From contig CALHCP010000092.1 of NCBI GenBank assembly GCA_937936705.1, forward strand, positions 1 to 38,602: DNA of 38,602 bases. Reading direction: 5' to 3'. A model generated the notes under the pieces. It was not told the DNA's origin, ran no database searches, and saw nothing but the letters and a program-made list of their open reading frames with translations. The position numbers were made by a program, and so were the translations under genes. Source of the stretch: an uncultured cyanobacterium (GTDB lineage: Bacteria; Cyanobacteriota; Cyanobacteriia; Gloeomargaritales; Gloeomargaritaceae). This document shows, piece by piece, positions 1 through 17,949 of this stretch (positions are counted from its first letter, which is position 1; each line of letters begins with the position of its first letter).

Positions 1-103
1 CCGTACCGAAGGGGAAAAATTGGCAATTAAAAGGGCGCTATTCCCGGTTCGATCCCAAATAACCCTTACTCGGTATGGTGAGGCAAGGAGAAAAAGACTG
101 TAA

Positions 104-222
104 GGAACCTCTATAAATTACGGATAAGCGGTCGCAGGGGCACCGCCCCCGACTTTGGTTTTCCATTAACTCGGCATTCCGGCGAGATGATTTTCCGCTG
201 GTTCAAATAAATAGAGGTGCCC
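104..222 (+). repeat. MITE-like intergenic repeat, copy A
   Basis: The left end GGAACCTCTAT and right end ATAGAGGTGCC are inverted repeats with one mismatch. The centre has a GC-rich hairpin (GGGGC acc GCCCC) followed by a block resembling TTGGTTYTCC and by an ACTCGG-like segment shared with the copies at 32751 and 34399. There is no ORF. The short string CTGTA occurs just outside both ends, possibly a target duplication. Confidence 0.8.
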
Positions 223-826
223 TGTAGATAGACATGGGTAAAATTACTAATAAGCTCAACCAATAACTTTGCCAGCGATTTGAGCTGAAATCATCCTTCT
301 ACAGGTCAGATGGTAAAAAGGCTTCCAAAGAATTTTGGAGATGACGGGTATTAAAATGGCTAGTTTCCCAATCCGTTAGGTCAGCTTCTTGATTGGTGCG
401 GGTTACCAAAAACACTTTGTAAACAGAATAGGGGAGTCCATCCCGATTATTACGTATCTTTTTTTTTCACAATCGCTTTAACAACGTTGTTGACTACGCT
501 GACATCTCTGAAGAGACCCCAAAAGAAACTTTGAATAATTTGGCAATTGGCATGGCTCGGTTCTGGCTTTGTGCAATGGACAGTATAACTTTTGCCAGAC
601 TGGTTTACAACGTTAACTCAAATGAACAGAAACGAACCCCAAATCAATGAGAACCATCGGCCATCGGCTCAATAAATTGCCTGATTTTATCTGCAATACC
701 AAGCGTCCACCATCGTGGTAAACGACTTTCAGGGGTTCCCTTTTCATGGCTTTTGGGGCGCAAGGATTACACGGAGACTACAAACCCTGATGATAATCCG
801 CGGCCAAGCCGCTTTTATCTGCCGAC

Positions 827-850
827 AAAAAAAGGGGGAATAACCCCCCC
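827..850 (-). terminator. Rho-independent terminator of petC-petA
   Basis: Read on the minus strand, a GGGGG/CCCCC stem with a short ttatt-type loop is followed by a run of seven T residues. It starts about 22 bases after the petA stop codon, so it probably ends the petC-petA transcript. Confidence 0.75.
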
Positions 851-871
851 TGATTGCACTCGCTTGAATCG

Positions 872-12508: not shown

Positions 12509-13435
12509 CTAATTCAACACCTGCCGATACCAGTCCAAGGTCGCCTGTAGCCCCTGCACCAAGGGCGTCTGCGGCTGCCAACCCAACACCTGCCGCATCC
12601 GGGTGACATCGAGAGCACTGCGGCTGGTTTCCCCCAACCGCTCCGGCAGAAAGCGGGGTTCGGTCTTGGTCGGCATCAGTTTTTGCAGCAATTCATATAA
12701 GGTCAATACGGAAGTTTCTTGCCCCGTACCGATATTCAGCGTCAAGGGTTCCGGCCACCCCAAAATTTGCAAATTCACCTGCGCCACATCCTCCACATAG
12801 ACATAATCCCGGGTCTGGGTCCCTTGGCCGTAAATGAACGGGGTTTGTCCGGTTAACAAAGCCGTAATAAAAGCCGTAATCACCCCCGCTTCCCCGGTGA
12901 TTCCCTGGCGCGGGCCGTACACATTGGCATAGCGTAAAATCACATAGCGTAACCCATGCACCTGATAATAAAAATGCAAATAATGTTCAACCGTGACCTT
13001 GGCAATACCGTAGGGAGAAATGGGTTGCAGGGGGTGGGTTTCCGGCGCCGGAATCTGTTGTAATTCCCCGTAACAAGCCCCCCCGGAGGACGCAAAAATA
13101 AATTGTTCAACACCCACCTCGGCGGCGGCAGCCAGCAAGTTTAACGAACCCAAGATATTGATCTGGGCATCGGTTACCGGTTGCGCCACAGACTGCCGCA
13201 CATCAATCTGGGCGGCGTGGTGGCTGATCACCGCCGGTCGCCAGTCCTGGAGAATCTGCCGGATGCGATCCGCCTCCCGCAAATCCGCTTGATAGACCCG
13301 ACTCTGAGGATGGACATAGGCCGGATTCCCCGCGGTGAAATTATCTAAAATTGCCACCTCGTGACCCGCTTGCAGATAAATATCCTGAACCGCAGAGCCG
13401 ATAAAACCCGCCCCGCCCGTAATCAAAACACGCAT
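12509..13435 (-). CDS. NAD-dependent epimerase/dehydratase, GalE-like
   Basis: A 308-residue extended short-chain dehydrogenase that interconverts nucleotide sugars, most similar in pattern to UDP-glucose 4-epimerases. The N-terminal Rossmann motif GGAGFIG (7-13) and D31 bind NAD. The catalytic SS pair is at 116-117 and YxxxK is at 142-146 (PYGIAK). The segment RYANVYGPRQ is the usual substrate-binding stretch. The exact sugar cannot be read from sequence. It follows the tubulin-like gene by 36 bases on the same strand and is probably cotranscribed; a functional link is unknown. Confidence 0.88.
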   Translation of the reverse strand: MRVLITGGAGFIGSAVQDIYLQAGHEVAILDNFTAGNPAYVHPQSRVYQADLREADRIRQILQDWRPAVISHHAAQIDVRQSVAQPVTDAQINILGSLNLLAAAAEVGVEQFIFASSGGACYGELQQIPAPETHPLQPISPYGIAKVTVEHYLHFYYQVHGLRYVILRYANVYGPRQGITGEAGVITAFITALLTGQTPFIYGQGTQTRDYVYVEDVAQVNLQILGWPEPLTLNIGTGQETSVLTLYELLQKLMPTKTEPRFLPERLGETSRSALDVTRMRQVLGWQPQTPLVQGLQATLDWYRQVLN

Positions 13436-13471
13436 GGAACCAGAAGATACCGCAATCAGTAGCCTATCACA

Positions 13472-16400
13472 TTAACCGAGACCCAATTCGTCACGAATGT
13501 TGGCTTCGATAGTAGCCACCTGGTCATCACTTAACCCCAATTCCTCCTGCAATTCCAACAGTTGCGCCCGTTCCTCTAAGCCGATTTCTCCGTCATTTTC
13601 TAAACAGGCGCGGAACATCAAACCATACTCATAACCCGCTAATTCCGGGTCATGTTTTTGCGGCTGAAAACGGGCAATAATTTCCTGAGCCGTTTCCCGA
13701 CTCACTCCATATTTCTCCCGCAACTTATCCAACATCTCTAATTCTTTTTCAGAAGGGGTTTTCCCCCCGCGATAACAGGTTTCCACGAGCTTGGTAAACT
13801 TCTCCACCGCACCGTCTAAAGCCTTGGGGGTTTCCGCCACCATTTTCGGCTTGACCGTAGCCGCAGGCGTGGGTGTCACGGTCACCCCGGGTTCAAACAA
13901 ACGATGATTTCGCACGCAATTGCTAATTGCATTTTCGACCGATTGGTACTCAGGATTATCCTGCCCGCCCGGTACGGTCTGTTCAAATTGGTGCAAATAG
14001 CTCATCAATTGCTCATATAAAGCCCGTTTTGCCTCCCGGGTATTTGCCTGCTTGAGGATTTTTTGAATCCCGTCGTTGAGCAATTCTCTCGCTCGCCGAT
14101 TTTGGTCGGCCAGCAGGTAATCCTCTGCCTCTTTCCAGGTACTGCCTAGATTCATACTGCGGCCAAGCCCGGTAGCACTATCTTGATAACTTAATTTGAT
14201 TTCGTTGTAACCGGTAATTTGATTTTCGGATTCGGTTAATAACTGAAAGACCCGTCCCAAAACCAAATTTTCCCGCACCTGAATTTCTTCCGCAGAAGCC
14301 GGCATGATATCGGCAAACCGACGACTGTCTTGATGGGTATGTAAGGGGTTGCGATCCATCTGAGCAACCGTGCGATAGATGGTGCGCATCCGTTCCATGC
14401 CTTCAATCAACCGCAGGGGAAATGCCCCGATTTCCCGCACGAAATAAATGTGGTGGGGGTCATTGTAGGGCCGAATATCTTTATCGGTTAAAGTCGTACT
14501 TTTCCGCAGGAGAGGTAGTAAAGCAGCTACCGCCGGATCGGTGGGTTTATTACCCCCTTGAATCCCCACCAGCGTTTGCCGTTTCTCCGGGCGGTCATCC
14601 CACCCCAAACGGGATTGTTCCTGACTGAAACGCAGGAAAGCTTCACTCTTTTCAAAGGTGGTTTTCAGCTGGGATTCCTGTTGTTCGATGGTGGGATATT
14701 GGGTGATGAATTTCTCGGCAACCGAAACTTTGAGCTGCTCACTGGTGCTAAATTCATCAATCGCTCGGTTGAGAATCCGTTGGTATAAATCCTGTTGCCG
14801 CAGATGCTCAAAAGTATGCAAATCAAACAAGCGGCAACCCATACCACTCCAGATATCCTGGGTCATACTTTGGTAAATGGTTTCCACCTTATTCTGGACG
14901 GTTTTTTGATAGATGTTTTCGATGTCTTGGGGGTCGTAAAGTAAGATACCGTTGACGGTCAGCGTGGTGGTTTCTCGGGTATAAACCTGTTCCCGTTCAA
15001 CTAATCTACGGCGGAGCGCTTCGAGATTTTTATCAAAATTATTCAGGTCGTTGATTAACCGCTGGGTTTCCTCTTTCAGGGCATCCAAAAGGGGAATCGC
15101 TAAGGCGCGGGCTTTGACTTCTACCTTGGATACATAAATGGATTCCAGCGCTTGCATGATCCCGTTAAAATCATCATCAATCACTTTTTTGCGATTGAGC
15201 AACATCATTTGTTTGGCATGGTTGTCAATCTGTTTGAGCAAGATTTGCATCGCTTGACTGGCTGAACGCTCGCGAGATAACCAATCTTTTTGCCGAGACT
15301 GGTCAAAGGTGGTGCGGAATTCTAACCAGACTTCTAACAGCACTTCCAGAAATTGGCGCGTCCATTTCGGCCCCCGGAAGCGGTCTTCCACCATTTGCGC
15401 CACGGTTGCCCGCAATTCTTGCGTTTTTTGGGGAATCATGCGGTTGAGATTGTCCCACATCTTTTGGAAATAATCACTCCAGCGCCGCGGGTCACTATCC
15501 GCATCGTTGAAATGCACCCGATACTTCTCTTCCTCAATCGAAATAAACTTGAGTAAATTCTCAAAAGGGACATTCAAATCGTTGCGGCGTTTGCGTAAAG
15601 CGGCGACCCAATCCGCCACTTCTTTGCTGTAGGGTTTCATATTATCCCCTACACTCAAATTATCCAAAAGTTGATGGTTGTTTTCCGATTCCGCCAGCCC
15701 TAAATTCGGTAAAATTTCAGTTTTAATCACATCGCGCATGGCCGTGGGAGCGGGGGTGGGATTGTTCCACCAATCCACCAGGGCAACCGCCAAACGAGAA
15801 GCACAGGCATTCAACACCCGTTGCACCGGAAACTGAATACTCGCCAAGCCGAAGGTAATGTAGTTTTGGGGATAGCCCAAGGGATCGGGACTGGCCCAAT
15901 GCTTGCGGATATTATCCCGCACCAACTTTTTATATTGACTGAACCCGGACGAGAAATCCAAAAAGATATTTTGCGCCACCATTTCCAAGACCGATTCTAA
16001 ATTGGGCAGGGTGACTTTATCGTTGCTATTCCCCACCAGATAACAGAATCCAAAGGGAGTATCCTGGGCACTTTGACTGCTGATGCGGTCGGTAATGTTA
16101 TTGCTATATTGGGTTTCAAAACGGGTGGTGGGACGGGAATAATGGTTCAATTCGGTAAGAGCGGCATAGGCATTGGCAATCACCCGGTCACCCAGGCCGG
16201 AAAATGCCCCCGGTAGAACCAGAAAGGCACAGGTCTGCGGTAGATCAGAAGGTGGCACCCAGTCCCGCACATTGTAGGCCAGGTCTAAAACCATTCCCGA
16301 ACCGGTGCCCCCGCTCAAGGAACAAACAACAAATACATTCACCCCTTTATCGAGCTGCACCCCCCAGCGATCCAGCATGAATTTTTCATGCCCGACAATG

Positions 16401-16822
16401 CGGGAGCGGGCATTGGCAAAGGCTTGTTTAATGGTTTGATAATTGACGGTAAAAGCAAATTTCCCTAACGCCCGAATCTGCCCTGCTCCCGCTAAAATCG
16501 AGTCTGTTCCGGTCAATTCCGGCGGGAACCATTCGGTTAAATACTCATAATCGGCAATTCGGTTCAAGATGGCTTTGGCATTATCTACTTTTGCCCAGAC
16601 TTGTTCGACGGGGCGCAGGGAAATATCCTGTTTTAAGACGGTTTGCGGCTCGGAAACTTTGGCATTTTGTTCCGTATCCAAATGCAGGAAAGAAACGATG
16701 GGCAGGGCATCCAAACTACCATAGGTTTCCACGATCATGCGCCGGATTTTAATAATAACTTCTTTGCCCGTGCCACCCAGACCAACGATGATGGTAGGGG
16801 TCATGCCGATGTAGTCTGACAT
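13472..16822 (-). CDS. Giant tubulin-like GTPase-domain protein
   Basis: A 1116-residue protein whose N-terminus belongs to the bacterial tubulin-like (Tubulin_2) group. It has a GLGGTG motif (14-19), LDTE (48-51) and the tubulin/FtsZ signature loop SGGTGSGM (170-177), which in the superfamily binds GTP phosphates. The middle (about 400-950) is long, mostly helical and charged, with likely coiled coils (about 590-680). A hinge rich in P, T and A (about 978-1000) leads to a C-terminal helical domain with two related units, EKELEMLDKLREKYGVS and ERAQLLELQEELGLS, reminiscent of TerB-type folds. No membrane segment is seen. Function is unknown; filament formation is inference. It is much longer than FtsZ (about 400 residues). 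Confidence 0.85.
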   Translation of the reverse strand: MSDYIGMTPTIIVGLGGTGKEVIIKIRRMIVETYGSLDALPIVSFLHLDTEQNAKVSEPQTVLKQDISLRPVEQVWAKVDNAKAILNRIADYEYLTEWFPPELTGTDSILAGAGQIRALGKFAFTVNYQTIKQAFANARSRIVGHEKFMLDRWGVQLDKGVNVFVVCSLSGGTGSGMVLDLAYNVRDWVPPSDLPQTCAFLVLPGAFSGLGDRVIANAYAALTELNHYSRPTTRFETQYSNNITDRISSQSAQDTPFGFCYLVGNSNDKVTLPNLESVLEMVAQNIFLDFSSGFSQYKKLVRDNIRKHWASPDPLGYPQNYITFGLASIQFPVQRVLNACASRLAVALVDWWNNPTPAPTAMRDVIKTEILPNLGLAESENNHQLLDNLSVGDNMKPYSKEVADWVAALRKRRNDLNVPFENLLKFISIEEEKYRVHFNDADSDPRRWSDYFQKMWDNLNRMIPQKTQELRATVAQMVEDRFRGPKWTRQFLEVLLEVWLEFRTTFDQSRQKDWLSRERSASQAMQILLKQIDNHAKQMMLLNRKKVIDDDFNGIMQALESIYVSKVEVKARALAIPLLDALKEETQRLINDLNNFDKNLEALRRRLVEREQVYTRETTTLTVNGILLYDPQDIENIYQKTVQNKVETIYQSMTQDIWSGMGCRLFDLHTFEHLRQQDLYQRILNRAIDEFSTSEQLKVSVAEKFITQYPTIEQQESQLKTTFEKSEAFLRFSQEQSRLGWDDRPEKRQTLVGIQGGNKPTDPAVAALLPLLRKSTTLTDKDIRPYNDPHHIYFVREIGAFPLRLIEGMERMRTIYRTVAQMDRNPLHTHQDSRRFADIMPASAEEIQVRENLVLGRVFQLLTESENQITGYNEIKLSYQDSATGLGRSMNLGSTWKEAEDYLLADQNRRARELLNDGIQKILKQANTREAKRALYEQLMSYLHQFEQTVPGGQDNPEYQSVENAISNCVRNHRLFEPGVTVTPTPAATVKPKMVAETPKALDGAVEKFTKLVETCYRGGKTPSEKELEMLDKLREKYGVSRETAQEIIARFQPQKHDPELAGYEYGLMFRACLENDGEIGLEERAQLLELQEELGLSDDQVATIEANIRDELGLG

Positions 16823-16944: not shown

Positions 16945-17949
16945 ATGGAACGGGGCTGGCTGATTGGCGAACTGAGTACCCAGGCGGGGGTGTCGCCGCA
17001 GACGATTCGTTTTTATGAACGGGAAGGGCTTTTGGCTCCCCCCCAGCGCAACAAAAGCGGCTATCGCCTCTACCCGCCGACATCGCTGACCCAGTTATTA
17101 TTCATCCAACACAGCAAGCAATTCGGTTTAACCCTAGACGATATTAAGCATTTGGTGCATCTACAGGGGCAGGGGATCAATCCCTGTGGCAGTTTTCGGC
17201 GTTTGGTGCAGGAACGGCTGCATACCCTGGCGCAGCAGGCCAAACAACTACAGGCCACCCACCAGGCGATCAGCCAACGGTTTGAGCGGTTGGCCACCGA
17301 ATTACCCAAAACCGACCATCCCCCTGGGCAGGGGCGCAGTTTGGAGGCATGGTTGCAGGAGGCGGCCAATCCTACCTATGCGCCGACGACCGGCGGGTTG
17401 GGGCGGGAGCAGTTGGTGCAGCGGTATATGGCCGGGGAACGGGATTTTCAGGGGCTGGATTTGATTCAGGCCAATCTATCCGGGGTAAATTTGAGTCGAG
17501 CGGATTTGAGTCGGGCGCAGTTAATGCTGGCCAATTTAGGCGAAGCCGTCCTGGAAGAGAGTCGCCTGCTCGGTGCCAATCTCAGCGGTGCGGATGCCAT
17601 CGGCGGCTATTTTCGGAACAGTCAAATGATCGGTGCGATTTTAATCGGCACCGATTTGAGTGAGGCGGATTTGATGGGAGCCAATTTAGGGGGAGCCAAT
17701 TTGGGGGGAGCCAATCTCAGCGGTGCCAATTTACAGCATGCTAATCTCAGCGAGGCGGTGTTAATCGGTGCCAATTTACGGGACTGCCATTTAGAGGGGG
17801 CGCTGTTGTGGGGGGCGAATTTGAGCGGGGCGGATTTGACCCAAGCGCGTCTGCATCTGGATCATCTAGCAACCGCCAATCTCTGGAGAACAACGCTGCC
17901 GGATGGTCAGGTCTATGCGCCCCAAATGGGCAGTCTTAATTATGAATAA
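16945..17949 (+). CDS. MerR-family regulator fused to a pentapeptide-repeat domain
   Basis: A 334-residue protein. Residues 1-75 are a MerR winged helix: LIGELSTQAGVSPQTIRFYE then EGLL and the wing SGYRLY. Residues 80-120 form the usual dimerising helix with one cysteine (C81, INPCGSF). Residues 165-318 hold pentapeptide repeats of the A(N/D)LSG type, for example GANLGGANLGGANLSGANL at 245-263. Such repeats fold as a right-handed quadrilateral beta-helix; some mimic DNA. MerR proteins usually carry small-molecule, metal or multidrug-binding C-termini, so this partner is unusual. The fusion is in one uninterrupted frame. What it senses is unknown. It is divergent from the tubulin-like gene. 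Confidence 0.85.
   Translation: MERGWLIGELSTQAGVSPQTIRFYEREGLLAPPQRNKSGYRLYPPTSLTQLLFIQHSKQFGLTLDDIKHLVHLQGQGINPCGSFRRLVQERLHTLAQQAKQLQATHQAISQRFERLATELPKTDHPPGQGRSLEAWLQEAANPTYAPTTGGLGREQLVQRYMAGERDFQGLDLIQANLSGVNLSRADLSRAQLMLANLGEAVLEESRLLGANLSGADAIGGYFRNSQMIGAILIGTDLSEADLMGANLGGANLGGANLSGANLQHANLSEAVLIGANLRDCHLEGALLWGANLSGADLTQARLHLDHLATANLWRTTLPDGQVYAPQMGSLNYE

Follow-up and report, generated by a model that had tools for sequence, protein, structure and literature searches.

Proteins of the FtsZ-like 1 (FtsZl1) family were named as such in 2010 by Makarova and Koonin, and part of that paper describes them as having an N-terminal GTPase-like domain with the T1 and T4 loops, then an extended coiled coil, then a mostly helical C-terminal part, the founder being 1051 residues long; similarity in T6-H7 and the C-terminal domain is there described as not identifiable (PMC2875224). 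The genes lie frequently, though not universally, in operons with vWA, kinase, GTPase or OmpA genes. Pointing to single neighbours, one of which encoded a substrate-binding protein, the reviewer Jekely proposed in the same part of the paper that the family may act in signalling or transport, an idea that the authors set aside because such genes occurred in one or few organisms only (PMC2875224). One part of a 2023 paper mentions Tubulin_2 proteins and then sets them aside as divergent (PMC9871819). Among the papers listed by searches of the open-licence PMC literature there was no laboratory work on these proteins, nor any mention of the receptor link, TerB-type tail or Mot-type partners described below. 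The gene studied here lies on a 38,602-nucleotide contig of an uncultured cyanobacterium (CALHCP010000092.1, hereafter the window), one contig of a 2.05-Mb assembly (GCA_937936705.1) that is 83% complete. The closest named relatives of its 1116-residue product are from a Gloeomargaritales isolate (91% identity) and Gloeomargarita sp. SKYG116 (87%), and the genus is therefore taken to be Gloeomargarita.

The gene (13472..16822, reverse strand) encodes a protein similar in length to the founder and about 2.6 times as long as the cyanobacterial FtsZ proteins collected, in keeping with the "nearly three times" of a first-pass annotation made from the DNA letters. Residues 11-349 match Pfam Tubulin_2 (PF13809) with 318.1 bits against a cut-off of 27 (E = 1.1e-94), far beyond chance. 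The protein is hence a member of FtsZ-like 1, a tubulin-superfamily GTPase family distinct from the division protein FtsZ, and its earlier description as tubulin-like was correct. Unlike the family as portrayed in that part of the 2010 paper, it ends in a TerB-type tail, its gene adjoins no vWA, kinase, GTPase or OmpA gene, and the wider clade to which it belongs is coupled to zinc-ribbon substrate-binding membrane proteins.

The GTPase half plus S7/H9, delimited by the Pfam match and by fold search, spans residues ~7-353 (15764..16804, reverse strand). Both motifs reported by the first-pass annotation are intact: the T1 loop GLGGTG at residues 14-19 (16766..16783, reverse strand), in which G14 and G16-G19 are invariant among 48 aligned family members, and the T4 signature loop SGGTGSG at residues 170-176 (16295..16315, reverse strand), in which G171-G176 are invariant, as are R302 and N304 elsewhere in the domain. 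The protein may bind GTP and polymerise. A phmmer search of the PDB with the whole protein gave no match, and an NCBIfam scan assigned it to no family. In a sample of 291 cyanobacterial genomes, Tubulin_2 matches were found in 83, with 77 exceeding the cut-off. The window's gene shows strong purifying selection against a close relative (dN 0.05, dS 1.2). That this might be the genome's own division FtsZ was considered and rejected, as a separate PF00091 protein, the conventional FtsZ, is encoded in the Gloeomargarita genomes G016 and G035; the window's assembly, at 83% completeness, yielded no PF00091 FtsZ protein.

Predicted fold and C-terminal tail

An AlphaFold2 model of the 1116-residue protein, built from 48 aligned sequences, has a mean predicted local distance difference test score (pLDDT) of 85.9 and a predicted template-modelling score (pTM) of 0.68. 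In Foldseek searches with this model CetZ, TubZ, tubulin and FtsZ rank first (best E = 5.8e-5). Alignment to whole tubulin and CetZ chains with VIA-align, whose output gives ranges only and no residue pairs, reaches Z scores of 20-23 and matches more than the GTPase half: approximately 340 residues align with tubulins (model 7..841 against chain 1..427), and 305 of 334 residues with CetZ2 (4b45; Z 22.2, root-mean-square deviation 3.9, model 8..824). The model of an Anabaena relative with 25% identity (pLDDT 79.3, pTM 0.64) was also searched with Foldseek and aligns over 14..868 with tubulin 1..430 (Z 21-23.5). The two end points, 841 and 868, differ by 27 residues, just as the conserved pairs E797/E824 and F801/F828 do in the alignment. 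The comparison with FtsZ and TubZ that had been suggested as a check thus gives, in both models, a predicted match to the whole fold, which is new for this family, at only 10-16% identity to CetZ, tubulin, FtsZ and TubZ.

Unlike those proteins, the window's protein carries a long C-terminal extension and, between its tubulin-matching parts, an insertion of ~390 residues (residues ~356-740; 14603..15757, reverse strand), which is helical and largely coiled coil in the model. The long coiled segments noted earlier correspond to modelled helices within residues 450-618 (450-479, 484-537 and 544-618), with more helices following, as in the described family architecture. Because S7 is followed by only ~25 residues before residue 355, the aligned CetZ C-terminal domain should mostly fall after the insertion. 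The proposed activation domain is accordingly placed at residues ~745-841 (14300..14590, reverse strand), where the whole-model alignments end at 841, equivalent to tubulin 427, and the Anabaena relative behaves in the same way. The modelled strands here (748-754, 783-785 and 791-801), with helix 763-776 between them, match the activation-domain order of FtsZ structures, and a further helix spans 809-820. Proof from sequence was sought with an FtsZ C-terminal profile run over residues 356-975, but its best placement, at residues 716-795, scored at a chance-like level; the assignment consequently rests on the models. The predicted fold is that of a complete tubulin whose activation domain is interrupted by a giant insertion, and the models propose a place for both T6-H7 and the C-terminal domain.

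The C-terminal helical domain was earlier described as TerB-like and as composed of two related units. Six helices are predicted at residues 1002-1112 (13487..13819, reverse strand), and the two units score 17.7 against each other as profiles, compared with a maximum of 15.4 in 100 shuffles. A profile of 24 tails was compared with one of 27 cyanobacterial TerB domains (28 of 30 loci could be read out, and the ambiguous L241 was dropped). The resulting score of 48.9 over 92 columns (E = 6.7e-9, probability 95.8) exceeds those of 200 column shuffles (at most 19.95), of the reversed tail (10.65) and of 48 segments taken elsewhere in the protein (at most 23.1, the top one overlapping the tail). 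This profile comparison identifies the tail as one TerB-type domain formed by both units, a new assignment, although individual sequences fall short: the window's tail scores 15.2 bits against the Pfam TerB (PF05099) cut-off of 24.4, six of 16 members match at E values up to 10 (best 0.0024), and a single tail compared with one TerB protein gives a probability of 1.9. A search of PDB sequences with the tail profile returned no TerB chain among its matches, which is uninformative. The resemblance lies in the two-half helical organisation and a DG..E motif in the second half; the acidic motif is gone from the first half. The domain is thus best termed TerB-type rather than a member of TerB. Other branches differ at this position: L032 has a SHOCT tail (30.4 bits over 27) and L054 a zinc ribbon (29.9 over 25).

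Putative zinc-ribbon receptors in the TerB-tailed clade

A survey of gene neighbourhoods across cyanobacteria, suggested by the first-pass annotation, was made on 80 fetched stretches, of which 77 loci including the window hold a gene matching the window's domain; L108-L111, with weak Tubulin_2 matches, lacked one and were dropped, and weaker Tubulin_2 matches were left out. Genes were called by a simple script, such that small genes may be wrong. The TerB-tailed proteins form a clade of 29 loci (tree support 99/99). In 18 of these a receptor gene lies downstream on the same strand, within 209 bp in 16 cases, and it belongs either to cluster c13 (PBP_like_2, E = 3.4e-33; seven loci) or to cluster c4 (Peripla_BP_6, E = 1.6e-24; 11 loci). 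Three further loci (L063, L087 and L092) end at a contig edge. Genes of the c4 type also occur near the tubulin-like gene in six loci of a second branch.

The receptor is predicted to be a single-pass membrane protein consisting of a cytoplasmic zinc ribbon (CPxC...CEIC), a transmembrane segment and a periplasmic substrate-binding domain, the N-in orientation following from positive charges before the transmembrane segment. The ribbon and transmembrane module is kept while the ectodomain changes between PBP_like_2, Peripla_BP_6 and WD40. The absence of the usual signalling neighbours, as first annotated, holds locally, since no vWA, kinase, phosphatase, GTPase or OmpA/Mot gene was found among the open reading frames scanned in the window; it does not hold genome-wide, because six of seven Gloeomargarita genomes carry an unlinked c13 orthologue, in some cases in tandem, with 53-56% identity that includes the ribbon. 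In G016 this orthologue lies in two overlapping pieces, and one of two tandem receptor genes in G049 (L212, 7883-9873) looks broken, with split matches, one containing a stop. The same six Gloeomargarita genomes also encode another protein with this ribbon and transmembrane segment; the one scanned, in G016 (L218, 7644-8801), bears a WD40 propeller, and L219-L223 are its counterparts. Hence TerB-tailed members co-occur with zinc-ribbon receptors, usually adjacent in other genera and unlinked in Gloeomargarita, an association that has not previously been described in the literature searched.

The distribution between genomes was also studied. A DNA pattern for the ribbon signature, written from the c13 and c4 proteins, is present in 27 of the 291 cyanobacterial genomes, while the backwards control is found in none. 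The TerB-clade protein is encoded in all 27 of these and in three of the 264 signature-free genomes. Twenty-six were in the TerB-clade tree set; in the 27th, G263, the gene is cut short by the end of contig C183, and what is present, including the tail, shares 88.6% identity with the L079 protein. Counted from the other side, the signature occurs in 27 of 30 carriers and 0 of 261 non-carriers (Fisher p = 4.6e-35, ancestry ignored), or 26 of 29 against one of 262 without G263. Carriers were classed only from fetched Tubulin_2 matches, except G263, which was examined because of its signature, and in three carriers, L063, L092 and L102, the gene is broken and does not show the tail. The exact signature is missing from three carriers: the window's assembly, G083, and G113, which has a c13 homologue (E = 7e-160). 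In families f16, f24 and f32 the pair is present in two, one and one genomes respectively and the remaining genomes have neither gene, which argues for linked gain or loss. Outside the clade, G241 and G215 encode c13-like proteins with weaker matches, which start close to the ribbon and lack the exact signature.

From this anatomy and co-occurrence, the likeliest reading is a tubulin-type GTPase tied to the inner membrane by receptors, which is proposed tentatively and with confidence somewhat short of even. The GTPase and activation domains would constitute a tubulin-type body, which would assemble with GTP, and the coiled coil inserted in the activation domain would project from that body, spacing or cross-linking its neighbours. 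The single-pass proteins would hold the body at the inner membrane, their cytoplasmic zinc ribbon docking most likely on the TerB-type tail, and the anchor's periplasmic solute-binding domain may switch assembly. In Gloeomargarita, the anchor gene would have moved away and the sugar epimerase gene taken its place in the transcription unit. A fuller version, in which exchangeable periplasmic domains (PBP_like_2, Peripla_BP_6 or beta-propeller) act through the common ribbon to nucleate or disassemble a membrane-bound polymer, making this a ligand-gated tubulin system, is rather unlikely.

Several points weigh against an anchored, assembling GTPase. Among the 26 TerB-clade loci whose downstream side is visible, eight have no nearby receptor gene (the seven of Gloeomargarita and L093, whose genome, G249, has a c4 gene elsewhere), and a zinc-ribbon receptor is absent from the assembly of the window itself, which is 83% complete. 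Sequence does not by itself establish the activation domain, because four of 100 shuffles reach the score of residues 700-860. The catalytic Asp of the FtsZ T7 loop seems not to be conserved, hhalign placing NVDFADV near SSGFSQY in a low-confidence alignment (probability only 10-12%); GTP hydrolysis, and perhaps filaments, may consequently differ or be absent. The co-occurrence p-value is also inflated by the relatedness of the species.

Alternative roles and the surroundings of the gene

The 2010 proposal of a membrane-remodelling complex with vWA and OmpA-type proteins, of which the window's gene would be an isolated copy with partners in trans, is improbable. Genes for a vWA protein with a transmembrane segment, the FtsZ-like protein, a MotA-like protein with a long coiled coil and a MotB/OmpA-like protein do stand together in 19 of the 77 loci, and a second such system exists in Gloeomargarita G016 and G096. 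However, these systems form a separate tree branch without the TerB-type tail, and the window's clade has receptors instead. The likeness of the sister-branch partners to ZorA/ZorB and MotA/MotB motors (MotA_ExbB matched by 11 of 16 c2 members, OmpA by 14 of 16 c3 members, and PDB profile matches to ZorA and MotB-related chains) comes with weak E-values, the ZorA match is partly coiled coil, and none of these genes lies beside the window's gene. At L095 (G016) and L098 (G096) the second, distant FtsZ-like 1 gene is found in an operon of this kind, with a predicted ion-driven motor alongside, and the MotB-like protein has an Asp at the start of its transmembrane segment in 16 of 16 cases. A very divergent Tubulin_2 branch (L104, L105 and L106) lies between a vWA protein of 607-613 residues and a protein of 922-1054 residues with no clear Pfam family.

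The gene for a 308-residue extended short-chain dehydrogenase/reductase (SDR), a nucleotide-sugar epimerase or dehydratase (12509..13435, reverse strand; Pfam Epimerase, E = 1.9e-60), starts 36 bp downstream of the tubulin-like gene in the same direction, so that the two reverse-strand reading frames and the order first annotated are as described. Its assignment as the UDP-glucose 4-epimerase GalE was rejected, since it scores 193.6 bits against the NCBIfam equivalog cut-off of 262.3 and only the extended SDR family can be claimed. From this neighbour an envelope or polysaccharide role had been suggested, in which the tubulin-like protein would position surface-sugar synthesis together with the epimerase. 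The pair is conserved on the same strand in all seven Gloeomargarita genomes (gaps of 36, -4, 32, 32, 36, 36 and 36 bp), remaining together at L089 where the flanks differ, but it is absent from the other 70 of the 77 loci and found in no other genus, and a shared promoter could stem from chance gene order. As the link is confined to Gloeomargarita, an envelope role is weakly supported and quite improbable. The nearest tree relatives, L078 and L072, have a receptor gene at the epimerase's place, and the epimerase gene therefore probably replaced a receptor gene in Gloeomargarita.

The organisation of type IV pilus or chemoreceptor machinery, a taxis role, is very unlikely: in six Thermosynechococcus loci (L032-L037) a CheA/MCP taxis cluster does precede the FtsZ-like gene and a Pilin_GH pilin gene follows it, yet these belong to a different branch with a SHOCT-type tail, and the gene clusters found there (c17, c18 and c5) are near no TerB-clade member among the 77 loci. 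Least credible is a conflict or defence module, as the resemblance of TerB, vWA and ZorAB-like parts to defence systems, with the tail's weak match to PDC-S48 in PADLOC (E = 0.0097) and the ZorA matches of MotA-like partners in other branches, is set against presence in 7/7 Gloeomargarita genomes under strong purifying selection and no defence genes among the window's scanned reading frames. A link to the intracellular carbonate biomineralisation of Gloeomargarita was also rejected, the relevant part of PMC12836880 speaking of ordinary FtsZ.

On the other side of the tubulin-like gene lies a divergent gene for a MerR-type regulator fused to pentapeptide repeats (16945..17949, forward strand; Pfam, cluster c29), which is its neighbour in five of the seven Gloeomargarita loci; a tie to the tubulin-like system is putative. 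Rfam and tRNA scans of the window gave no match. Promoter-like counts are close to the shuffle mean, and terminator-like counts slightly higher.

Implications for the family

Since 2010 FtsZ-like 1 has had no known function and no agreed answer as to whether it forms filaments. The window's protein is a genuine, conserved member of this known and uncharacterised family, with a new partner, and in the TerB-tailed clade the association with receptors is almost universal. The prediction of an entire tubulin fold interrupted by an insertion, together with a near-exclusive receptor-like partner, makes the function of the family testable. Co-occurrence with membrane proteins resembling ligand sensors suggests a skeleton-like protein under the control of outside signals, though it falls short of proof; were the ligand-gated system to prove true, it would represent a cytoskeleton controlled directly by extracytoplasmic ligands.

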